NCBI GenBank assembly: GCA_016463705.1
Contig: JAEMQU010000014.1
Location: forward strand, 7,188 to 45,410
Reading direction: 5' to 3'
Origin: Opitutales bacterium
GTDB lineage: Bacteria > Verrucomicrobiota > Verrucomicrobiia > Opitutales > UBA953
DNA: 38,223 bases
Made by a program: the position numbers and the translations under genes. Positions 11,959 through 20,558 of this stretch are shown here, one piece after another. The first letter of the stretch is position 1, and each line of letters begins with the position of its first letter. The notes beneath the pieces are model-generated. The model was given only the letters and a program-made list of their open reading frames with translations. It was not told the origin of the DNA and did not search any database.

Positions 11959-12447
11959 TTATGCTTCGGATGACTCCAGCTCATCTATCGGTGAAAGAAT
12001 ATCATTATTTTCACTATCCGGCATACTCATGTCGGACAGATCATCTTGTTCCAAACTAGCCACCATCGCATCCGGCGTAACATTCTCGGTCATTTCCTCA
12101 AAATCTTCACTCACCCCTTCACTGATGTGATAGAGTAAGCCGCTGTATTCCGCGGGCAGAGTGACTCGGAGCTGAACAAAAACCGCCGCGACTAAACACG
12201 CATAAGAAGCAACTTGGCTCATGCGATAGACGAATAACCTCAACCATGTAAATGAGAGATAAGCCTGCTTAGATTTATCGGCCGCGAGACATTCCAGTTG
12301 GGCCTCGTGTAAACGCACTTTCGCTTTAAATCGATTTTTTAACTCCGGCGATTCTTGAATAAACTTAAGTAAACGAGCCTCTTCCACCCGCGAGATATTT
12401 CCCTCGAGATAGCGCTCCACCAAAACTTCAAACTCGGCCAAACTCAT
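11959..12447 (-). CDS. Putative anti-sigma factor, single-pass membrane protein
   Basis: A 162-residue protein whose ATG overlaps the stop of the ECF sigma gene (ATGA). The N-terminal stretch FEVLVERYLEGNISRVEEARLLKFI, then residues ending in PELKNRF, resembles the short helical N-terminal domain of anti-sigma factors of Planctomycetes and Verrucomicrobia. One hydrophobic segment lies at about residues 74-95. The remaining 65 residues are strongly acidic and low in complexity, with no recognised fold, and would be outside the cytoplasm if the helix is a membrane anchor. Function is inferred from order and overlap with the sigma gene plus this topology; there is no HxxxCxxC zinc motif. It could instead be an unrelated membrane protein. 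Confidence 0.6.
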   Translation of the reverse strand: MSLAEFEVLVERYLEGNISRVEEARLLKFIQESPELKNRFKAKVRLHEAQLECLAADKSKQAYLSFTWLRLFVYRMSQVASYACLVAAVFVQLRVTLPAEYSGLLYHISEGVSEDFEEMTENVTPDAMVASLEQDDLSDMSMPDSENNDILSPIDELESSEA

Positions 12448-13034
12448 TTCAAATACTCATCTCCCATGAGTTCGCGTAAGGCCTCACGTGCGCGATTGAT
12501 TCGACTTTTAACCGTGCCGATGGAAAGCCCAAGCTCTTGCGCAATATCTTCATAGGATATGTTTTGGATATTACGCATGGTAAGGATTAGAGCATGTTCG
12601 GGCTTTAATTGTTCCATGCAGTCGGCAACTTTTTTAACGAATTCATTGTGTTGTGCTTCGTGGCCTGGTCCCTGGGTACCGTCCGATAAAATATCATGCA
12701 AGGTTGCCCCGGCATCTTCCCCGAGATCGGCGTCTAATGACATCGACTCATCACGCTTGCGGCGTTTCCAATACCAGTAGCGATTCCGAGCTAAATTAGT
12801 ACCAATTTGATAAATCCAAGTCGAAAAACTGGCATTTCCACGAAAGGTCGCGAGCGCACGGTGGGCACGAATAAAAGTATCTTGGGTAATCTCTTCAGCG
12901 TCTTGGCTATTTCGGAGCATCGAAAAAACCTTAGCAAAAATTCTCTCCTGATATTTTAATACCAATTGATTGTAGGCATCCAAATCACCCTTGCGGGCAC
13001 GATTTAGGGTAAGCTCTTCTGATTCATTATCCAT
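12444..13034 (-). CDS. ECF-family RNA polymerase sigma factor
   Basis: A 196-residue sigma-70 family protein with only regions 2 and 4, as in ECF (group 4) factors. Region 2, about residues 19-92, contains MLRNSQDAEEITQDTFIRAH and FSTWIYQIGTNLARNRYWYWKRR. Region 4, about residues 142-190, contains LGLSIGTVKSRINRAREALRE, the helix-turn-helix that reads the -35 box. The linker is acidic and longer than minimal. It is RpoE-like in appearance. It overlaps the membrane anti-sigma-like gene by four bases and is divergent from the GTPase operon at 13134, with 99 bases between starts. A sigma70-type promoter is proposed at 13069-13096. Whether this factor controls the facing operon is open. Confidence 0.93.
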   Translation of the reverse strand: MDNESEELTLNRARKGDLDAYNQLVLKYQERIFAKVFSMLRNSQDAEEITQDTFIRAHRALATFRGNASFSTWIYQIGTNLARNRYWYWKRRKRDESMSLDADLGEDAGATLHDILSDGTQGPGHEAQHNEFVKKVADCMEQLKPEHALILTMRNIQNISYEDIAQELGLSIGTVKSRINRAREALRELMGDEYLK

Positions 13035-13061
13035 AATTAGGGGTAATTAATGGTTGGGGGA

Positions 13062-13079
13062 ACTGACTATAGTACTGAC
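13062..13079. repeat. ACTGAC direct repeat flanking TATAGT in a divergent promoter region
   Basis: Two exact ACTGAC hexamers, 13062-13067 and 13074-13079, are spaced 12 bases apart start to start and enclose TATAGT. They sit between the sigma factor gene and the GTPase operon and cover the proposed -10 box of the sigma gene. Such placement suits an operator for a repressor or activator, but no binding protein is known and hexamer repeats can occur by chance. Confidence 0.3.
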
Positions 13080-13096
13080 ATCCTTGCAGAATTCAA
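13069..13096 (-). promoter_or_regulatory. Possible sigma70 promoter of the ECF sigma operon
   Basis: On the minus strand TTGAAT (13096-13091) and TACTAT (13074-13069) are 16 bases apart. Transcription would begin near 13062, giving a leader of about 28 bases before the ATG at 13034. The boxes match the consensus at four and five positions respectively. I did not find an equally good promoter for the plus-strand operon. Confidence 0.4.
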
Positions 13097-13133
13097 CTGC
13101 TGTCTTTAGTGTATTTTACGCCCCAAAGGACCC

Positions 13134-14852
13134 ATGTTTATCTCTAGTAAGAAGAAAGCCATCGTGCAGTGGTACAATTGCACCCTTGGCACAAAGGGCA
13201 GCTTTGAAACTCTACCCGCAAAACTCCCCACAGAGAGTCTGTTACCATCCATTATTCTCACTCAGAATTCTGGTCACCTTTCCATCGAATCAGTGGCGGG
13301 TAAAAAGATTTTTGTGAATGGAAATTTACTGATTAAGCCCACGCCGATTTCTGAAACCACCACTCTGCAATTTCCCGACTCACTTTGGGTAATCAGTCCA
13401 AGTCCCGAAATAGATTTCAGTGAAGTAAATAATACTCTCTGGACTTTGTTCGATGCTTCGACCGGTGAAAACATTGGCCAATATCCCTCAAGTCAACTTT
13501 TGAACGCCGCCCAGCACATGGGTCGCGCCCCCGAAACCCTTGCCTGCACCCCTCACGGTTTAGAAGTGGGTTTTAATCTTTCGCAGATTGCCAGTCACCT
13601 GAGTCCCCACGAAGAAAATTTTGCGCCGACCAAATCTTCCGTCACCTTAGCTGAAGAAAAAAATAAAGGTAGTCACAGCTGCCCAGTCTGTTGGACACGA
13701 TTTAATCCAGGCGACGCTCTCAGCATCGCCGTGCACGAAGATCTGCGCGGTGATCCGATTCTCGGTAGCGATGTTCGACTGCGCTTCCATCCCACCCGCT
13801 TTAACGATCATGGTCTCGCCCTCGACCCCATGGGCCTCGCCTGCACCGACATCGCTTGCCCTCATTGCCGCCGCCAACTCCCGCCAGGCTATCTGGATAT
13901 GCCGCACCAGATTTTATCGATCATTGGAGCCCCTAGCGCAGGTAAATCGTACTATTTAGCCGTACTTACTAGAATTCTCCAAGAGAAACTACCGACCGAC
14001 TTAGGACTGGCCTTCAAGGACGCCGACCCGACGGGCAATCTGCTCCTCAATCAAATGCGGAACTCCCTCTTCTCCGCCACCACACCCGAAGAGGCTCTCC
14101 TCGGCAAAACCGCCCTCGAAGGCGCCACCTACGAAAAACTTCCGCGGCTAGGACGCATCGTCTCTCTGCCCCGTCCGTTTATTTACACGCTCAGCGTTCC
14201 CAGCCAAAAACAAAAAGAGACCTCGATTATTTTCTACGATAACGCCGGTGAACATTTTGAGCCCGGCATCGATATCCATGACTCCCCTGGCGCCATGCAC
14301 GTCGCCACTGCAGCGGGACTCATCTTCCTTTTCGACCCCACCGCGAATGCCCGCTTCAAAGCAAAATTAGTCGGCGTCGATGATCCTCAACTTTCCATCA
14401 AAGGTCGCATCGATCAGCAAGATACGATTCTCGCTGAAATGGAAACACGGATCAAACGCGTCTTAGGCCTCTCACAAAAAGAACGCATCGCCACTCCTTT
14501 AGCTTTTGTCGTTGGCAAATGCGACACCTGGCAATTCCTCCTCACTTCACCACTCGAACCCATTCTGCAAAATGGAAAAATTGATCTGGAAGCCATTCAC
14601 CGAAATTCTGACCGCGTTCGAGAAGTCCTGATCCAACTCTGCCCAGGACTCGTCGCCACCGCAGAATCTCTCACCCAAGAAATTCGTTATTTCGCCGCGA
14701 CATCTTTCGGACACCAACCCGTCGTGATTGCCGAAGGCGCTAATAAAGGTCGTATCGCACCCGACCCCCAAAAACTCGCGCCCGCCTTCGTCGAAGCCCC
14801 TGTTTATTGGCTCATGCATTTAGCTTCGCCTGAATTGATTCCTGGAAAATAA
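13134..14852 (+). CDS. Zinc-finger P-loop GTPase-like protein (TRAFAC-type, GYF-like region)
   Basis: A 572-residue soluble protein. Residues 1-95 are beta-rich and vaguely FHA-like, without the FHA signature residues. Residues 103-150 resemble a GYF_2 domain (W103, then GENIGQ, and RAPETL). A Cys cluster follows: CPVC (183-186), Cys237 and CPHC (242-245), a likely zinc site just before the nucleotide fold. That fold has Walker A GAPSAGKS (265-272), a G3-like DNAGE (369-373) after hydrophobic IIFY, and a G4-like GKCD (461-464) after AFVV. This combination points to a small-GTPase-like protein of the kind that accompanies GAP1 proteins, and the next gene is GAP1-N2-like. It begins the operon; AAAGGA at 13125-13130 is a close but short-spaced ribosome site. 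GTP specificity is inferred from the G4 motif only. Confidence 0.8.
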   Translation: MFISSKKKAIVQWYNCTLGTKGSFETLPAKLPTESLLPSIILTQNSGHLSIESVAGKKIFVNGNLLIKPTPISETTTLQFPDSLWVISPSPEIDFSEVNNTLWTLFDASTGENIGQYPSSQLLNAAQHMGRAPETLACTPHGLEVGFNLSQIASHLSPHEENFAPTKSSVTLAEEKNKGSHSCPVCWTRFNPGDALSIAVHEDLRGDPILGSDVRLRFHPTRFNDHGLALDPMGLACTDIACPHCRRQLPPGYLDMPHQILSIIGAPSAGKSYYLAVLTRILQEKLPTDLGLAFKDADPTGNLLLNQMRNSLFSATTPEEALLGKTALEGATYEKLPRLGRIVSLPRPFIYTLSVPSQKQKETSIIFYDNAGEHFEPGIDIHDSPGAMHVATAAGLIFLFDPTANARFKAKLVGVDDPQLSIKGRIDQQDTILAEMETRIKRVLGLSQKERIATPLAFVVGKCDTWQFLLTSPLEPILQNGKIDLEAIHRNSDRVREVLIQLCPGLVATAESLTQEIRYFAATSFGHQPVVIAEGANKGRIAPDPQKLAPAFVEAPVYWLMHLASPELIPGK

Positions 14853-14856
14853 TTTC

Positions 14857-16986
14857 ATGCCTCTGCAACTCATATTCACTTCCGCCCCACGTGGCCTCGT
14901 GGCTGGGCGATCGGGATATTGCACCGTGGCACGTCATCGTTCAATTCCGGATCGACTCGCCCAAATTTTAGAATCACTCGGCACCCCACATCAAAATCCT
15001 GAAGGCGCCACTTTCACTTTTCGAATCATCGAAGCGAGTAATACCAATTGGTTTGTCTTATCACGATTTGTGGCTCGCGGACTCGATTACTCACAACGCG
15101 ATAACCGTCTGGCTCATCACTTAATTTTCACCGCGGAAGAAGCCGCCGTTCTCCCACCCCCTTCAGCGATGGCGTTTCGCTGGAATGGATGGCTGACAGA
15201 ATGGACCCAAGAACCGACGTGGCTAACCGAGGACCCTCGTCCACTTATACTCGACAAAGCTCCACCACTTCGCCCGGCCTCTGCCTGGCGTGAATTCTCG
15301 GGCACCGGTGCAAAAGCCGCTTGGTTAGTCAATGAAGTGGGACCCACGACACTTTGCCTCACGCAACCACCCGAAGACAAAATCCTCCTTCGCCTCTTAG
15401 CCGAATCAGCCGCCTTGTTGGGAAATTCTTCATGGTATGCCACCTTCACTTCTAATGTAATTGTCACCGGATCAGACGGATTTCATTGGGCAGTCGGTCT
15501 GGTTACTGGCCGACCTGAAATAAATCTCAGTCAAACCCAACAACTGCCCGCCCCCACCAGCGAACTCGCCCGCCAAGCAGCCACGGGAAACAGTGCAACA
15601 ATTCCGGTTCGCGCAGCCGGTGAAAAAAATAGCTCAGCGCTTAATAGTGCTAAATCAAATCAGTCTAAACTTCCTTGGAATATAATAATAATTTTCTTCA
15701 GCTTAGGAGTTTTAGCCATCATTGCCGCCCTCGTCATCGGCCAGTTTAGTAACGGTTCAAAAAAAACTGCTACACCCAGCAATCCGACAGCTCCGGCAAT
15801 CAATACGACGCAAAGTAGCGATATTTACCGTAGTAATATTGCGATACAAGGGGTCGCCAGTTTCCTCGACAGCGAAAGGTATGTCGATGCCGGTAAACTC
15901 TGGCTCGAAAGTGTAAATCACTCTCCCACTTTTACTGAGCGTTATCGCGAGCAATACCTAACACGTATCACCAAAAACTACGCGGAGAAAACAGCAGCTC
16001 AACTTTTACAACGACTCGCCCAACCTAATCTTAATCAGAGTACGGTCTCAGAAATCGGTGAAGACGCCGCCACTGCTGTACGCATCGGGACTGAGTTAAA
16101 TATTCCCGTCGATACTCACTGGAAAAAGTTAGTAAACGTAAACGAACAAATTCAAATTATTTCTCAATTAGATATTCGTCCGGTTATCTTAATCAGCGGT
16201 CGTTGGCAAACGACTGACCTCGGAAAATCGGCCCCCTCATCCGCGGAGTTTAAATTGAGCAATGCGGGGGCGGAAAAGATTTTGAAATTTATCGAGATAA
16301 CCAAGGTAACTCCCGAACTAACCGTCAGCGCCCGCGTGCGTTTACTTCCGTTAACGAGTTTTCATAAACGCGATAATCATACGCCTTACCTCAATGCTGA
16401 AATCCGTCGTGGTGGACAGAGCTATTGGATTGAAACCAGTGGCACTGCGGGCACCGCACCCATTGTCGTGGGGATTGGCCCGAAGAAGAAATCATTAGAA
16501 CTTAATTTTAGCGATGGTACTGCCACGAGTTTACAGGAACAAAATCGATTACTAGAAATTGTTTTACCCGATGGTTCGCATCAGTGTATCGCCCTCATTG
16601 CAGATTGGAAAAAAATTAAGCCTCTCAATCTCGGCACTTGGGCTCTCGATGTAGAACGCGATACCGGCGTCGTTCAAGCCGCCACTTGGGCTGAAAATGC
16701 ATTAAAAGCCTTCCAGCCTGAAACCGGAACGGTCGGACTCTACCCCACCGGACACGAATTCCCCGATCGTGACCTCGCCTCCATTCGCGCCACGCGTTCG
16801 CTGCTCGAAACCGATTTACTCCGCAACGAATACAAAGAAAGCACACGCATCTCGAACCAAGAAAGCATTAAGTCGCGCAAACAGTTCTTTGCCCAAGGTG
16901 ATTATATCAACGCCGGACGTCCGTGGTCGCTCATCATCGTCAGCCCTAAAGGCGATGCCGGTGCCACCCTCATTGAGTTTCAATAA
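14857..16986 (+). CDS. GAP1-N2-like (GTPase-associated protein) membrane-anchored protein
   Basis: The 709-residue protein starts four bases after the GTPase-like gene. Its first 190 residues carry features I associate with the GAP1-N2 family (GTPase-associated protein 1, N-terminal type 2): IFTSAPRGLVAGRSGYCTVA near the start, then NWFVLSRFVARGLDYSQRDN and RLAHHLIF. A basic linker leads to one transmembrane helix at about residues 275-297. The remaining 410 residues have no family I recognise; they include a beta-rich region and a segment before the end that could be disordered. With cytosolic GAP1-N2 and GTPase, the C-terminal part would be periplasmic if the helix is single-pass, which is a prediction. 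The GAP1-N2 assignment rests on remembered sequence patterns, not a search. Confidence 0.75.
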   Translation: MPLQLIFTSAPRGLVAGRSGYCTVARHRSIPDRLAQILESLGTPHQNPEGATFTFRIIEASNTNWFVLSRFVARGLDYSQRDNRLAHHLIFTAEEAAVLPPPSAMAFRWNGWLTEWTQEPTWLTEDPRPLILDKAPPLRPASAWREFSGTGAKAAWLVNEVGPTTLCLTQPPEDKILLRLLAESAALLGNSSWYATFTSNVIVTGSDGFHWAVGLVTGRPEINLSQTQQLPAPTSELARQAATGNSATIPVRAAGEKNSSALNSAKSNQSKLPWNIIIIFFSLGVLAIIAALVIGQFSNGSKKTATPSNPTAPAINTTQSSDIYRSNIAIQGVASFLDSERYVDAGKLWLESVNHSPTFTERYREQYLTRITKNYAEKTAAQLLQRLAQPNLNQSTVSEIGEDAATAVRIGTELNIPVDTHWKKLVNVNEQIQIISQLDIRPVILISGRWQTTDLGKSAPSSAEFKLSNAGAEKILKFIEITKVTPELTVSARVRLLPLTSFHKRDNHTPYLNAEIRRGGQSYWIETSGTAGTAPIVVGIGPKKKSLELNFSDGTATSLQEQNRLLEIVLPDGSHQCIALIADWKKIKPLNLGTWALDVERDTGVVQAATWAENALKAFQPETGTVGLYPTGHEFPDRDLASIRATRSLLETDLLRNEYKESTRISNQESIKSRKQFFAQGDYINAGRPWSLIIVSPKGDAGATLIEFQ

Positions 16987-16991
16987 GCCGA

Positions 16992-19952
16992 ATGCAAATT
17001 GATAAACTCATTGCACGAATTCGCGGACAACTCGAAATTGGCACGCCCGACCTCGAAGCGCGGACCTTAGCGAGTGAGTACTCCGCACTTTGCCAACGTG
17101 CCCGTGAGCGCCTTGAGCAATGCAATACCCTGATTCGCAATGGTAATGATTATGCAGCTTTTCAAATCGCCGAAACTGAACCCGACCTCTTGACGCTGGG
17201 TAGTCAATTGAGTTTTGCCGATTCCGAACGGTGGCATACACTCTGTCGTGAACGCGGACTCCCCTCTGGTTTCATTCTTGATGAACAACATATTTTAGCT
17301 GTCGAAGGTTTATACGGGAAATCCATCGGTGAAAACCATCAACTCTATCGCGAATACCGTGAAGCCATGCGCACCCACGATGAAGATCGTGCCCTCAATG
17401 TCCTCCGCTCTATCGTCAGAATTAATCCCGAAGACCCGACCGCTCGCTCAGAGTTAATTCGCCTATCCGCCAAATTTATCCGCGAATCACTCCATAACCT
17501 AGGGAAATTACTGGATGAAGATAAAGATGATGAAGCGATTCATTTAATGGGGCAAATGGAACGCTTTGGTGATGATGACTTAAATTCCAAACCGGAGTGG
17601 ATTAATGCCCTGAATCGCCGAATCACGATTTTACGTCAGAAAGCGTCTCAACAAATCCCCGCACTCATCAAAGAAGCTGAGTCAGCTAAAAGCAATCAGC
17701 TCTGGGAATTATGTATTAACTCTCTCGCGAGGATCAGAACACTCGAGCGCGACCACCAACTCAGCCTCTCCGAGAATGTTCAATCCTCCATTAAAAGTCT
17801 CGAAAAATGGGCGGGGGAACTGGCGACTGCTCACGAAGCCGAAGCAACGATAAAATCCAACACCCAACAACTCGTGACGCAGTGGGAAAATCTTTCAGCA
17901 AGTATTCAAAAGGGCAACTCGCCCGTCTTTTTAATCTCTAGTCTAAATGACTGGCTAGAACGTGCGAAGAATTTTACGGAAAGTCTTCCGCCCGGCTTAA
18001 TTGATAAAGTAAATTCCGCGCTGAAATTAACGCGGGCACGCCTCACTCGTCGCTACGCCCTTTTAATTTCTACCTGGATCGCTGGTTTTCTCATTCTCGT
18101 AGGCGCACTCTTTTACGGCTATCGCACTCAGGAATTGAAATCAGAGGCCCGGCGGAACTTCCAAGAAATTCGATCTCTGCTCGAGGTCTGGGACACCGAA
18201 ACCGCTGCTCAGAAACTAACCAGCGATAATAATAATAGTATGGTAAACGAGAAAAGTTCAGAATTTTTGGACGAATACACGGAAATTAAAAAGGAGATTC
18301 AAAAACAACGCGAAAGCATCACCACCCTGCGCACTGAAGCGAGTTACCTTCAGCAAGCCTTCAAATCGGGCATCACACTTTCAAACTATGCGGAAGTTAA
18401 TATTCATGCCAAGGCCTACATCCAAGCCATCACGCAAGTAGGACCCAAGGCTGCCGAAGATTTAAAGAAATTATGTCCCGACCCAGCGCTGATTCTTTCG
18501 AGCTGCCAAAAAATCACGGAAGAAAGTCGGACGCAATTATTCAATCTACGCGTCCAACTTAAGAAATCCATCGGCAGTAACGACAAAATTTCGGATTTAC
18601 CGAATGCGCTTAACACCATTGAGAAAATTCGTCCACTCATTCTCAGTCTCTCGATTGCGGGCGTGAAAGACCTCGATGAAGCGAATGCCGAAATTGATCG
18701 AGCGAACATCCGAATTGAAAGTGAAAACCAAGCCCTCTCCCAACTGCAGAGCCTCACTCAGGCCACCGATCTCAAATTGTATCTCAGTGCCTTGGGTTCA
18801 ATGATCAAAAATAATACGACGAGCTCCCCTTTAAGCAAGCGTGCACAAAATATCATTAATCATTCACCCAAGATTCTCACACTGCCCCGCTCTGTTTTAG
18901 CTCCGCACATCGGTGCCATGTGGGATAATATTCCCAATACAGATTCCTCCGGACTATTTCAACCGTCTCAACTCACGCCCTATGAATCGAATATTGTTCA
19001 AGCATTAGCGGATAATCGCACTGCCCTATCGATGCGCCGATATTATGTGCGCCAAAACTCCTCCGAGGGGATTAAAAAAATACGTTCGGTGGTGATCTCG
19101 GGCGAACTTGACATACAACGCAAAGGCTTCAACGGCGGGATTGAATATGTAATCACTGGCAAAGAATTAAATCGGGACGGTGAATTCATCGACTCTTCCT
19201 GGAGTCGCCGAGAATTCCGAACCGAAAAAGGTGAATTCATCTCGAAGGGCGAAGACCTGGTTGAAGAAACCCCTCTGGGTGAACTTGATTACCTCCGACA
19301 GTTCAATCGCTTCTTCGAAGTTAAAAATGGTCAACTCCCCGAGCCCATCATTCGTAAACTTGATTTAGTCCGTCGCAGCCCAGCTCCATTCATCGAATTG
19401 CGCGCCTATCAGCTGCAAGAACTTTTCAAAGTCGCCAATCAACGTCCCGAAATCTGGGGCATCATGTATTCACCTTCGGCCCTACGCGACGCGGAGCAAC
19501 TCCGCCGTATCACCCAAAACTCAATCAATGCGCATGACTTCCTGTTTAAAGAAAAATGGAACGATGCCCTCGGTGAGCTAAAATCCATTCTTCTTCGTCA
19601 AGGCGGTTGCACCTACGCTGAAGAAGCGCGTTTTTGGCGAAGTCTCTTAGCCACGCTACGCACCCAAAAAATGATTTATGTCGGCTTCCAGTCTGCTGAC
19701 GGCGAAGCGATTCTGCGCGAGAAACTTTCCGACAACCTCATTTTCGGTATCGATAACGAAGGTAAAGCTAATGTGATTTATCGCGTCGATGCCGACGGCA
19801 ACCGCACCCGAATCAACGAGCCCGCACCCCTCTCGCCCCTTTTACGCTTGTCCACCACGGTCACCGAGGCTGCGCGATCTTCCAAAATCCCGGCCAATCT
19901 CAATCCACCTGAAGGAGGCTGGGAAGTCATCCTCCTTGGCCGTGATTTATAA
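16992..19952 (+). CDS. Large bitopic protein of unknown family in the GTPase operon
   Basis: A 986-residue protein beginning five bases after the GAP1-N2-like gene. The first 350 residues are charged and look helical, with TPR-like spacing in places such as HDEDRALNVLRSIVRINPEDP. One transmembrane helix follows at about residues 355-376, preceded by Arg-rich TRARLTRRY. After it come long Glu/Lys/Gln-rich helices (about 380-640) that are probably coiled coil, then a C-terminal region with mixed secondary structure. No enzyme motif was found. The topology mirrors the preceding gene: a cytosolic N-terminus and a large C-terminal part across the membrane, or the reverse. I cannot name a family. 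Its position in a tight operon implies that it works with the GTPase and GAP1-like proteins, probably as a membrane scaffold. Confidence 0.7.
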   Translation: MQIDKLIARIRGQLEIGTPDLEARTLASEYSALCQRARERLEQCNTLIRNGNDYAAFQIAETEPDLLTLGSQLSFADSERWHTLCRERGLPSGFILDEQHILAVEGLYGKSIGENHQLYREYREAMRTHDEDRALNVLRSIVRINPEDPTARSELIRLSAKFIRESLHNLGKLLDEDKDDEAIHLMGQMERFGDDDLNSKPEWINALNRRITILRQKASQQIPALIKEAESAKSNQLWELCINSLARIRTLERDHQLSLSENVQSSIKSLEKWAGELATAHEAEATIKSNTQQLVTQWENLSASIQKGNSPVFLISSLNDWLERAKNFTESLPPGLIDKVNSALKLTRARLTRRYALLISTWIAGFLILVGALFYGYRTQELKSEARRNFQEIRSLLEVWDTETAAQKLTSDNNNSMVNEKSSEFLDEYTEIKKEIQKQRESITTLRTEASYLQQAFKSGITLSNYAEVNIHAKAYIQAITQVGPKAAEDLKKLCPDPALILSSCQKITEESRTQLFNLRVQLKKSIGSNDKISDLPNALNTIEKIRPLILSLSIAGVKDLDEANAEIDRANIRIESENQALSQLQSLTQATDLKLYLSALGSMIKNNTTSSPLSKRAQNIINHSPKILTLPRSVLAPHIGAMWDNIPNTDSSGLFQPSQLTPYESNIVQALADNRTALSMRRYYVRQNSSEGIKKIRSVVISGELDIQRKGFNGGIEYVITGKELNRDGEFIDSSWSRREFRTEKGEFISKGEDLVEETPLGELDYLRQFNRFFEVKNGQLPEPIIRKLDLVRRSPAPFIELRAYQLQELFKVANQRPEIWGIMYSPSALRDAEQLRRITQNSINAHDFLFKEKWNDALGELKSILLRQGGCTYAEEARFWRSLLATLRTQKMIYVGFQSADGEAILREKLSDNLIFGIDNEGKANVIYRVDADGNRTRINEPAPLSPLLRLSTTVTEAARSSKIPANLNPPEGGWEVILLGRDL

Positions 19953-19955
19953 ACG

Positions 19956-20558
19956 ATGAGTAAACAATCCACATTTCGTCTACGCTGGAAAGGTGCCATT
20001 TCCGAACCGCTCTCCTTAGGTCAGATTAGCGATAAATTACGTTCCGGTGAAATTAGTTTAATTCATAACATCGAAGTCGAAGGCTCATGGATAACCATCC
20101 GCGAATATTTCCGGACTATTGGCTTAAGTCGCTCGCCCATCACCACCGCCTCCCAAATCAAAAATCAGGAATCGGGCAACAACCCTCCCGAATTAAAAGC
20201 GTCCGAGACGGGCAATATAAATAATCAGCCAAACCTCGAACACCTTGTACGCATGGGCTACCTCTGGTGTGGCTCCACTTTTATTTTCCCACTTTTATTT
20301 TCCCTCATCGTACCCATCTTAGAATTTTTAACTAAGGCTACTTTTCCATTCTCCTCCCGTTTTGTCCTTCTGGCCTTTGGAACCCTTGCGGGGTGTGGCC
20401 TTCCCTACTTATCCATCCGACACATTAACGCTTATATTCAAGACCACGGACTGAGCGATATCGTCAAAGATCAGCAAAAACTTTACGTTACCCTCGCCAC
20501 GACCAGTGCCCTCGTTTGGCTCATAGTTTTCTGGATTTTAGCAGGGACCAAGGCCTAA
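19956..20558 (+). CDS. GYF-like domain protein with three C-terminal membrane helices
   Basis: The last gene of the operon starts three bases after the previous stop. Residues 6-52 follow the GYF_2 pattern: FRLRWKGAISEPLSLGQISD, then LRSGEISLIHNIEV and GSW. A polar linker of about 40 residues leads to hydrophobic segments at about 100-125, 133-152 and 177-197. GYF_2 domains act as small protein-binding modules in many bacterial membrane proteins, so this may tether another component to the membrane. The conserved glycine-proline of the motif reads SEP here, so the match is imperfect. There is no terminator hairpin after it, and a tRNA gene follows after 59 bases. Confidence 0.7.
   Translation: MSKQSTFRLRWKGAISEPLSLGQISDKLRSGEISLIHNIEVEGSWITIREYFRTIGLSRSPITTASQIKNQESGNNPPELKASETGNINNQPNLEHLVRMGYLWCGSTFIFPLLFSLIVPILEFLTKATFPFSSRFVLLAFGTLAGCGLPYLSIRHINAYIQDHGLSDIVKDQQKLYVTLATTSALVWLIVFWILAGTKA

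Follow-up and report, generated by a model that had tools for sequence, protein, structure and literature searches.

A vertically inherited DO-GTPase/GAP1-N2 gene cluster of a freshwater Opitutales bacterium with a large unnamed partner and a proposed role in envelope signalling

DO-GTPase/GAP1-N2 systems were defined by Kaur, Burroughs, Iyer and Aravind (2020, eLife 9:e52696; PMC7159879), who list Verrucomicrobiae and describe planctomycete GYF proteins that are fused to transmembrane-rich regions. In type VI secretion, the protein TagF serves as a brake on the system. It works through its binding to Fha, an FHA protein (PMC5995506). More recently, a 2024 paper named a DO-GTPase in phage-shock envelope-stress operons (PMC11237479), which fits the envelope role that we propose below; no experimental study of DO-GTPases was found in the literature searched. 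Herein, we describe a four-gene cluster, P1 to P4, from a freshwater Opitutales (Verrucomicrobiota) bacterium. The system is known in outline from Kaur et al. (2020), while its third protein, its link to motor genes and the likeness of its second protein to TagF and longin domains appear undescribed: the text of PMC7159879 mentions neither the P3 family, the ExbB/ExbD linkage nor the TagF/longin likeness, and the terms TagF, longin, ExbB, TolQ and MotA are absent from it.

The cluster comprises four genes on the + strand that lie head to tail at positions 13134-20558 of the window, by which we mean the whole stretch of 38,223 nucleotides analysed here, and that are separated by gaps of 4, 5 and 3 bases. 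An initial annotation of the stretch had reported four genes on one strand with gaps of 3-5 bases, and its coordinates were confirmed by the list of open reading frames; its helix counts were also right, as hydropathy gives one membrane helix in P2, one in P3 and three in P4. The housekeeping genes rsfS, nadD and lpxI adjoin the cluster. Relatives keep the P1-P2-P3-P4 order, with junctions of 60 bases or fewer in 58/59, 63/64 and 61/64 cases, and this order recurs in other Opitutales families with other flanks. The BrkB, NAD-kinase and PNPOx genes found behind the cluster in one of these loci (L042, family f17) look like ordinary neighbours and were set aside. As in the GAP1-N2 systems of Kaur et al. 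(2020), a DO-GTPase with a zinc ribbon is followed by a GAP1-N2 protein, here after a 4-base gap, and the GAP1 protein carries membrane helices. In contrast to those systems, none of the partner types FNIII, tubulin, HSP70, kinase and vWA was found among P1-P4 (a Pfam scan detected no FNIII repeats in P1, P2, P3 or P4), and the four genes form a vertically kept core set rather than a set of variable effectors.

P1 (13134-14852, + strand, 572 aa) is a DO-GTPase2 protein that scores 28.6 bits against PF19993, for which the Pfam cut-off is 27; the same family was matched at E ≤ 0.1 by all 26 of its 26 aligned relatives. The P-loop, DNAGE and GKCD motifs from which this gene had been read as a GTPase are present where they had been reported, as G1 GAPSAGKS, G3 DNAGEHF and G4 GKCD, in alignment columns that are invariant or nearly so. 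The conserved Glu after Walker B that is typical of DO-GTPase2 is also present (DNAGEHF). Whereas DO-GTPase2 proteins usually have two zinc ribbons, P1 shows one, CPxC...CPHC, whose four Cys (C183, C186, C242 and C245) are invariant in relatives. From its N-terminus, P1 is ordered as an FHA-like stretch at ~38-92, a conserved 'WxLFDxxTG' region, the zinc ribbon and then the GTPase, and hydropathy predicts no membrane helix. The N-terminus matched an FHA profile with a probability of 80%, compared with 0.1-0.2% for three unrelated controls, in one small profile comparison that covers half of the FHA domain (the second half). As hmmscan gave no FHA match for this region, its FHA-like character is suggestive. 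Sequence-profile searches of the PDB with P1, the P1 N-terminus, the P2 N-terminus and P4 returned nothing significant; for the P1 N-terminus, FHA domains were two of the top four weak matches.

P2 (14857-16986, + strand, 709 aa) had been called GAP1-N2-like, and it scores 63.2 bits against PF20013 (GAP1-N2; cut-off 24), so that both members of the pair have profile matches over cut-off. The motifs SAPRGL, GYCTVA, LDYSQR and LAHHLIF were found in its N-terminus, as had been described. In a Pfam scan at E ≤ 1, GAP1-N2 was the one family recovered, with no match to TagF_N (PF09867) and no further domain, GAP1-M and GAP1-C included; in the model, a second, helical domain comes after it. The protein is predicted to be cytosolic at residues 1-255, to cross the membrane once at 276-294 and to continue into a large periplasmic half. 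In the AlphaFold model (mean pLDDT 87), this periplasmic part consists of a helical bundle (317-438), an Ig-like beta domain (441-583) and a C-terminal alpha/beta part. The C-termini differ between families, from 339 to about 1250 aa.

When the P2 model was compared with known structures using VIA-align, its cytosolic half aligned with TagF from Acinetobacter (9t0n; Z 7.1, 217 residues, rmsd 4.8, 10% identity) and from Pseudomonas (6iz8; Z 5.0, 141 residues), and residues 1-133 aligned with the longin domains of Lst4 (Z 6.7) and FNIP2 (Z 6.0). FNIP2/FLCN and Lst4 regulate Rag GTPases. P2 resembles these proteins in the predicted, longin-like fold of its residues 1-133 (Z 6.0-6.7); it differs in that they are eukaryotic, in that no sequence similarity between them and P2 was detected, and in that GAP activity of P2 is putative. 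Similarly, the TagF/Fha pair may have a counterpart here in the TagF-like fold predicted for P2 1-255 and the FHA-like N-terminus of P1, whereas P2 gives no TagF_N match, is membrane-anchored and is partnered with a GTPase. The predicted resemblance of P2 1-255 to TagF and to the longin domains of Rag-GTPase regulators is at the level of fold, and we treat it as a lead because Z scores under 8 can mean a common arrangement; we retain it because several relatives point the same way.

P3 (16992-19952, + strand, 986 aa) belongs to an unnamed family whose homologues occur both within Opitutales and in other parts of the phylum; the closest named record, with 96% identity, belongs to a Lake Baikal MAG assigned to Opitutales. 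The initial annotation had counted two large bitopic subunits that it did not recognise. This stands for P3, which matches no Pfam family over cut-off, and does not hold for the 709-aa P2, which represents the GAP1 component and is extended into the periplasm. Residues 1-355 of P3 are predicted to be cytosolic, helical and TPR-like, with the best conserved stretch at 1-160, followed by a single transmembrane helix (356-374) whose positive-inside charge favours an N-in orientation. The periplasmic half is made up of helices (390-650) and of beta-rich domains at 681-760 and 894-953, in a model with a mean pLDDT of 84.5. Fold matches to P3 were generic helical-repeat proteins with Z of 8 or less, and these were set aside as uninformative. 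With P3, a large missing partner of the module can be named. In two relatives a gene of the cluster appears as two overlapping frames (P3 in L087:4675-7637 and P2 in L115:4204-7945), each of which points to a frameshift or an assembly error.

P4 (19956-20558, + strand, 200 aa) has an N-terminal GYF-type domain, a variable linker and three membrane helices. P4 of the window has no Pfam match, and its GYF-type assignment is carried across by alignment with relatives that match GYF_2: this family is found in 6 of the 24 aligned relatives (best E 4.6e-12), and RDD in 2 of the 24. In another relative, the P4 position is taken by a fusion of a GYF domain with an intramembrane metalloprotease of the PrsW family (L187:333-1721). 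By eye, L189:2894-4165 resembles this fusion.

On balance we favour, with modest confidence, the reading that P1-P4 form a signalling complex of the DO-GTPase/GAP1-N2 type in the inner membrane, which is gated by a GTPase, is probably devoted to envelope surveillance and is motor-less here. A membrane-bound GTPase signalling module had been proposed at the outset, and this description fits. Our reading draws on the genes observed in the cluster, their domains and predicted folds, their co-inheritance and vertical descent, and the link to motor genes that is seen in relatives. From these we infer every interaction, as well as the GTP cycle, the nature of the signal and that of the output. P1 would be the cytosolic GTPase and P2 its regulator, in which a TagF/longin-like cytosolic domain would be tied through the transmembrane helix to a periplasmic sensor or anchor. 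P3 would act as a scaffold of helical repeats, spanning the membrane a single time and extending into the periplasm, and P4 as an adaptor in the membrane, with its GYF domain binding a proline-rich partner. P2 and P3 would sense the state of the envelope through their periplasmic parts; this would alter the hold of P2 on P1 and in this way the GTP state of P1, with the output probably consisting of envelope remodelling and of an ECF sigma factor that is encoded divergently. Since the core runs into ExbB/ExbD-type genes in other Verrucomicrobiota, an ion gradient probably powers the full machine, and the genus of the window would keep a motor-less core function.

The gene for this ECF sigma factor (12444..13034, - strand) lies beside P1 and is divergent from it, and its product matches Sigma70_r2 and Sigma70_r4_2 over cut-off. 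Further Opitutales families also have an ECF sigma gene at this divergent site (L042, L112 and L125-L129), and in family f2 no such gene lies beside the cluster. In Bacillus subtilis, the release of an ECF sigma factor begins with PrsW, and with this role the GYF-PrsW fusion described above fits the divergent sigma gene. A candidate anti-sigma factor gene (11959..12447, - strand), called from its position and from hydropathy (one weak transmembrane segment at 73-91), overlaps the sigma gene by 4 bases; its product matches no Pfam family. The divergent intergenic region (13035..13133) contains TGACA-N11-TTCAA, a candidate shared regulatory element that is present with the same spacing in 20 of 43 related intergenic regions, where 0.015 were expected by shuffling, although this conservation is partly due to descent since the loci are related. 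The element is absent from six tested loci of other families. In the bacterium's own genome, a longer form of the pattern had 1 exact match, and the reversed control pattern also had 1. The linkage of the sigma gene to the cluster could be one of neighbourhood only.

In family f2, and likewise in further families and classes of Verrucomicrobiota, the core is followed by a MotA/TolQ/ExbB channel gene (PF01618) and then by one or two ExbD-like genes (L116, L189, L190, L191, L194, L196 and L198; the L194 stretch does not extend back to any P1 or P2). In L201, the ExbB-type channel gene lies on the other side of the core. The ExbD-like proteins are bitopic and have an Asp at the membrane helix. 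In having an ExbB-family channel and ExbD-like proteins, these relatives resemble ExbB-ExbD, TolQ-TolR, MotA-MotB and ZorA-ZorB; they differ from them in that the motor is coupled to a GTPase/GAP1 core and has two ExbD-like partners, and the genus of the window differs further in that no motor was detected. The window cluster contains no ExbB/ExbD-type channel or ExbD-like genes, and seven genomes of the genus, searched with an ExbB profile, gave no match at E ≤ 1e-10. The window version is therefore either a reduced form or one that uses another motor, and the motor of the relatives tells nothing direct about it. Downstream of the motor genes in L116 (16103-18655), an 851-aa protein with DSDNDG (TSP3-like) repeats was noted by eye as a candidate surface protein.

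It is possible, and we put this forward tentatively, that the full loci represent a new class of envelope machine that is widespread in Verrucomicrobiota and is composed of a GTPase switch, a membrane-anchored TagF/longin-like regulator, a new scaffold family and an ion-driven motor with two ExbD proteins. TagF and GAP1-N2 would then stem from a common bacterial longin-type GTPase partner, and the window would hold a motor-less derivative. Three testable predictions on what DO-GTPase systems do arise from the conduct of the module as a vertically inherited core part, from P3 as its missing large partner, and from its links to the ExbB/ExbD motor and, at the level of fold, to TagF. We consider it unlikely that P1-P4 in the window are themselves the regulatory and basal part of a motor-driven machine for surface protein export, gliding or adhesion, controlled in a manner like that of TagF and Fha and served by a motor that is unlinked or different. 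The continuation of the core into ExbB and ExbD-like genes in several families and classes, the surface-type protein further downstream in L116 and the TagF-like fold of P2 are in its favour, but no close ExbB relative was found in the seven genomes of the window's genus, a search of 289 genomes of the phylum gave 0 matches to TagF_N (the controls were likewise without a match), and no secreted substrate was recognised in the window.

The distribution of the genes is consistent with the signalling complex that we favour, with one exception. Homologues of P2 are present in 35 of the 37 genomes of the window's genus, the window's own included, with the same flanks and at one locus each, save for copies split over contig ends or broken frames; together with the order kept in relatives, this argues that the set is not due to chance. 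Across related loci, pairwise identities of P1, P2, P3 and P4 track those of the neighbouring gene for a PEP-utilising enzyme (r 0.89, 0.90, 0.93 and 0.86, respectively). Throughout the genus, the set occurs as a single copy in conserved synteny and is inherited vertically. Co-occurrence of the four genes in relatives, on which the initial annotation had staked its proposal, was likewise found. The exception is that the set is absent from most sampled Opitutales genomes (137/177), which counts against our explanation.

Among the 177 Opitutales genomes, counting strong matches only, 34 have both P1 and P3, 6 have P1 only, 0 have P3 only and 137 have neither (p about 1e-30). Across 289 Verrucomicrobiota genomes, P3 and GAP1-N2 occur together in 24, P3 alone in 2, GAP1-N2 alone in 25 and neither in 238 (p about 2e-19). 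Weak, coiled-coil-like matches to P3 (E 1e-3 to 1e-6) in some genomes were left out of the strict count. Both p-values overstate the evidence, as the sampled genomes are related. A stronger argument is the repeated separation of the genes with co-retention. At nine loci of termite-gut type (mostly Puniceicoccales), an origin that we take from the isolate names, P3 stands without P1 and P2 nearby, and the same genomes carry P1 elsewhere in 9/9 cases and P2 in 7/9. Genomes of family f4 have P1 either on a different contig from P3 or at a distance of about 70 kb.

These patterns bear on the suggestion, also made in the initial annotation, of a defence module. In such a conflict system, anti-phage or for kin competition, P2 and P3 would detect an invader through their periplasmic parts, and the membrane would be disrupted by P4 or P3. 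The families of the core pair are among the predicted conflict systems of Kaur et al. (2020; PMC7159879), P2 has C-termini that differ from family to family, and outside the genus the distribution is patchy (36/177). However, we find this reading improbable: the set is kept by nearly the whole genus as a single copy at one locus among housekeeping genes, it diverges in step with its housekeeping neighbour, a Pfam scan recognised no effector enzyme in the four proteins, P2 has no match in plasmids or viral contigs, and PADLOC gave no meaningful match (best E 0.026, for a 53-residue stretch of P3 against a methyltransferase model). P1-P4 would be an ancient core part of the cell and not a phage-defence island, and a predicted 'conflict' module behaves in one lineage as a vertically inherited core part. 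That P1-P4 are unrelated proteins of a co-transcribed housekeeping neighbourhood, as their position by rsfS, nadD and lpxI could suggest, is very hard to credit, since other families preserve their order amid different flanking genes and since P1 and P3 are retained together even where they lie apart, P3 being without P1 in 0/34.

A partial form of the proposed signalling complex may be preserved in g22, a genus of the same family as the window, in which the isolated N-terminal domain of P1 is kept in 4 of 6 genomes. One of these (G074) has this domain together with a 467-aa P2-like protein, and no GTPase domain or P3 was found in it. The g22 loci followed in detail come from one genome with both parts (L203 and L204) and one with the P1 domain (L205). 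Retention of the P1 N-terminus and a P2-like protein suggests that the two work together without the GTPase, like Fha and TagF. By eye, the P1 N-terminal domain adjoins a gene for a CPBP-like membrane protease at L204:6990-8204 and L205:6951-8129.
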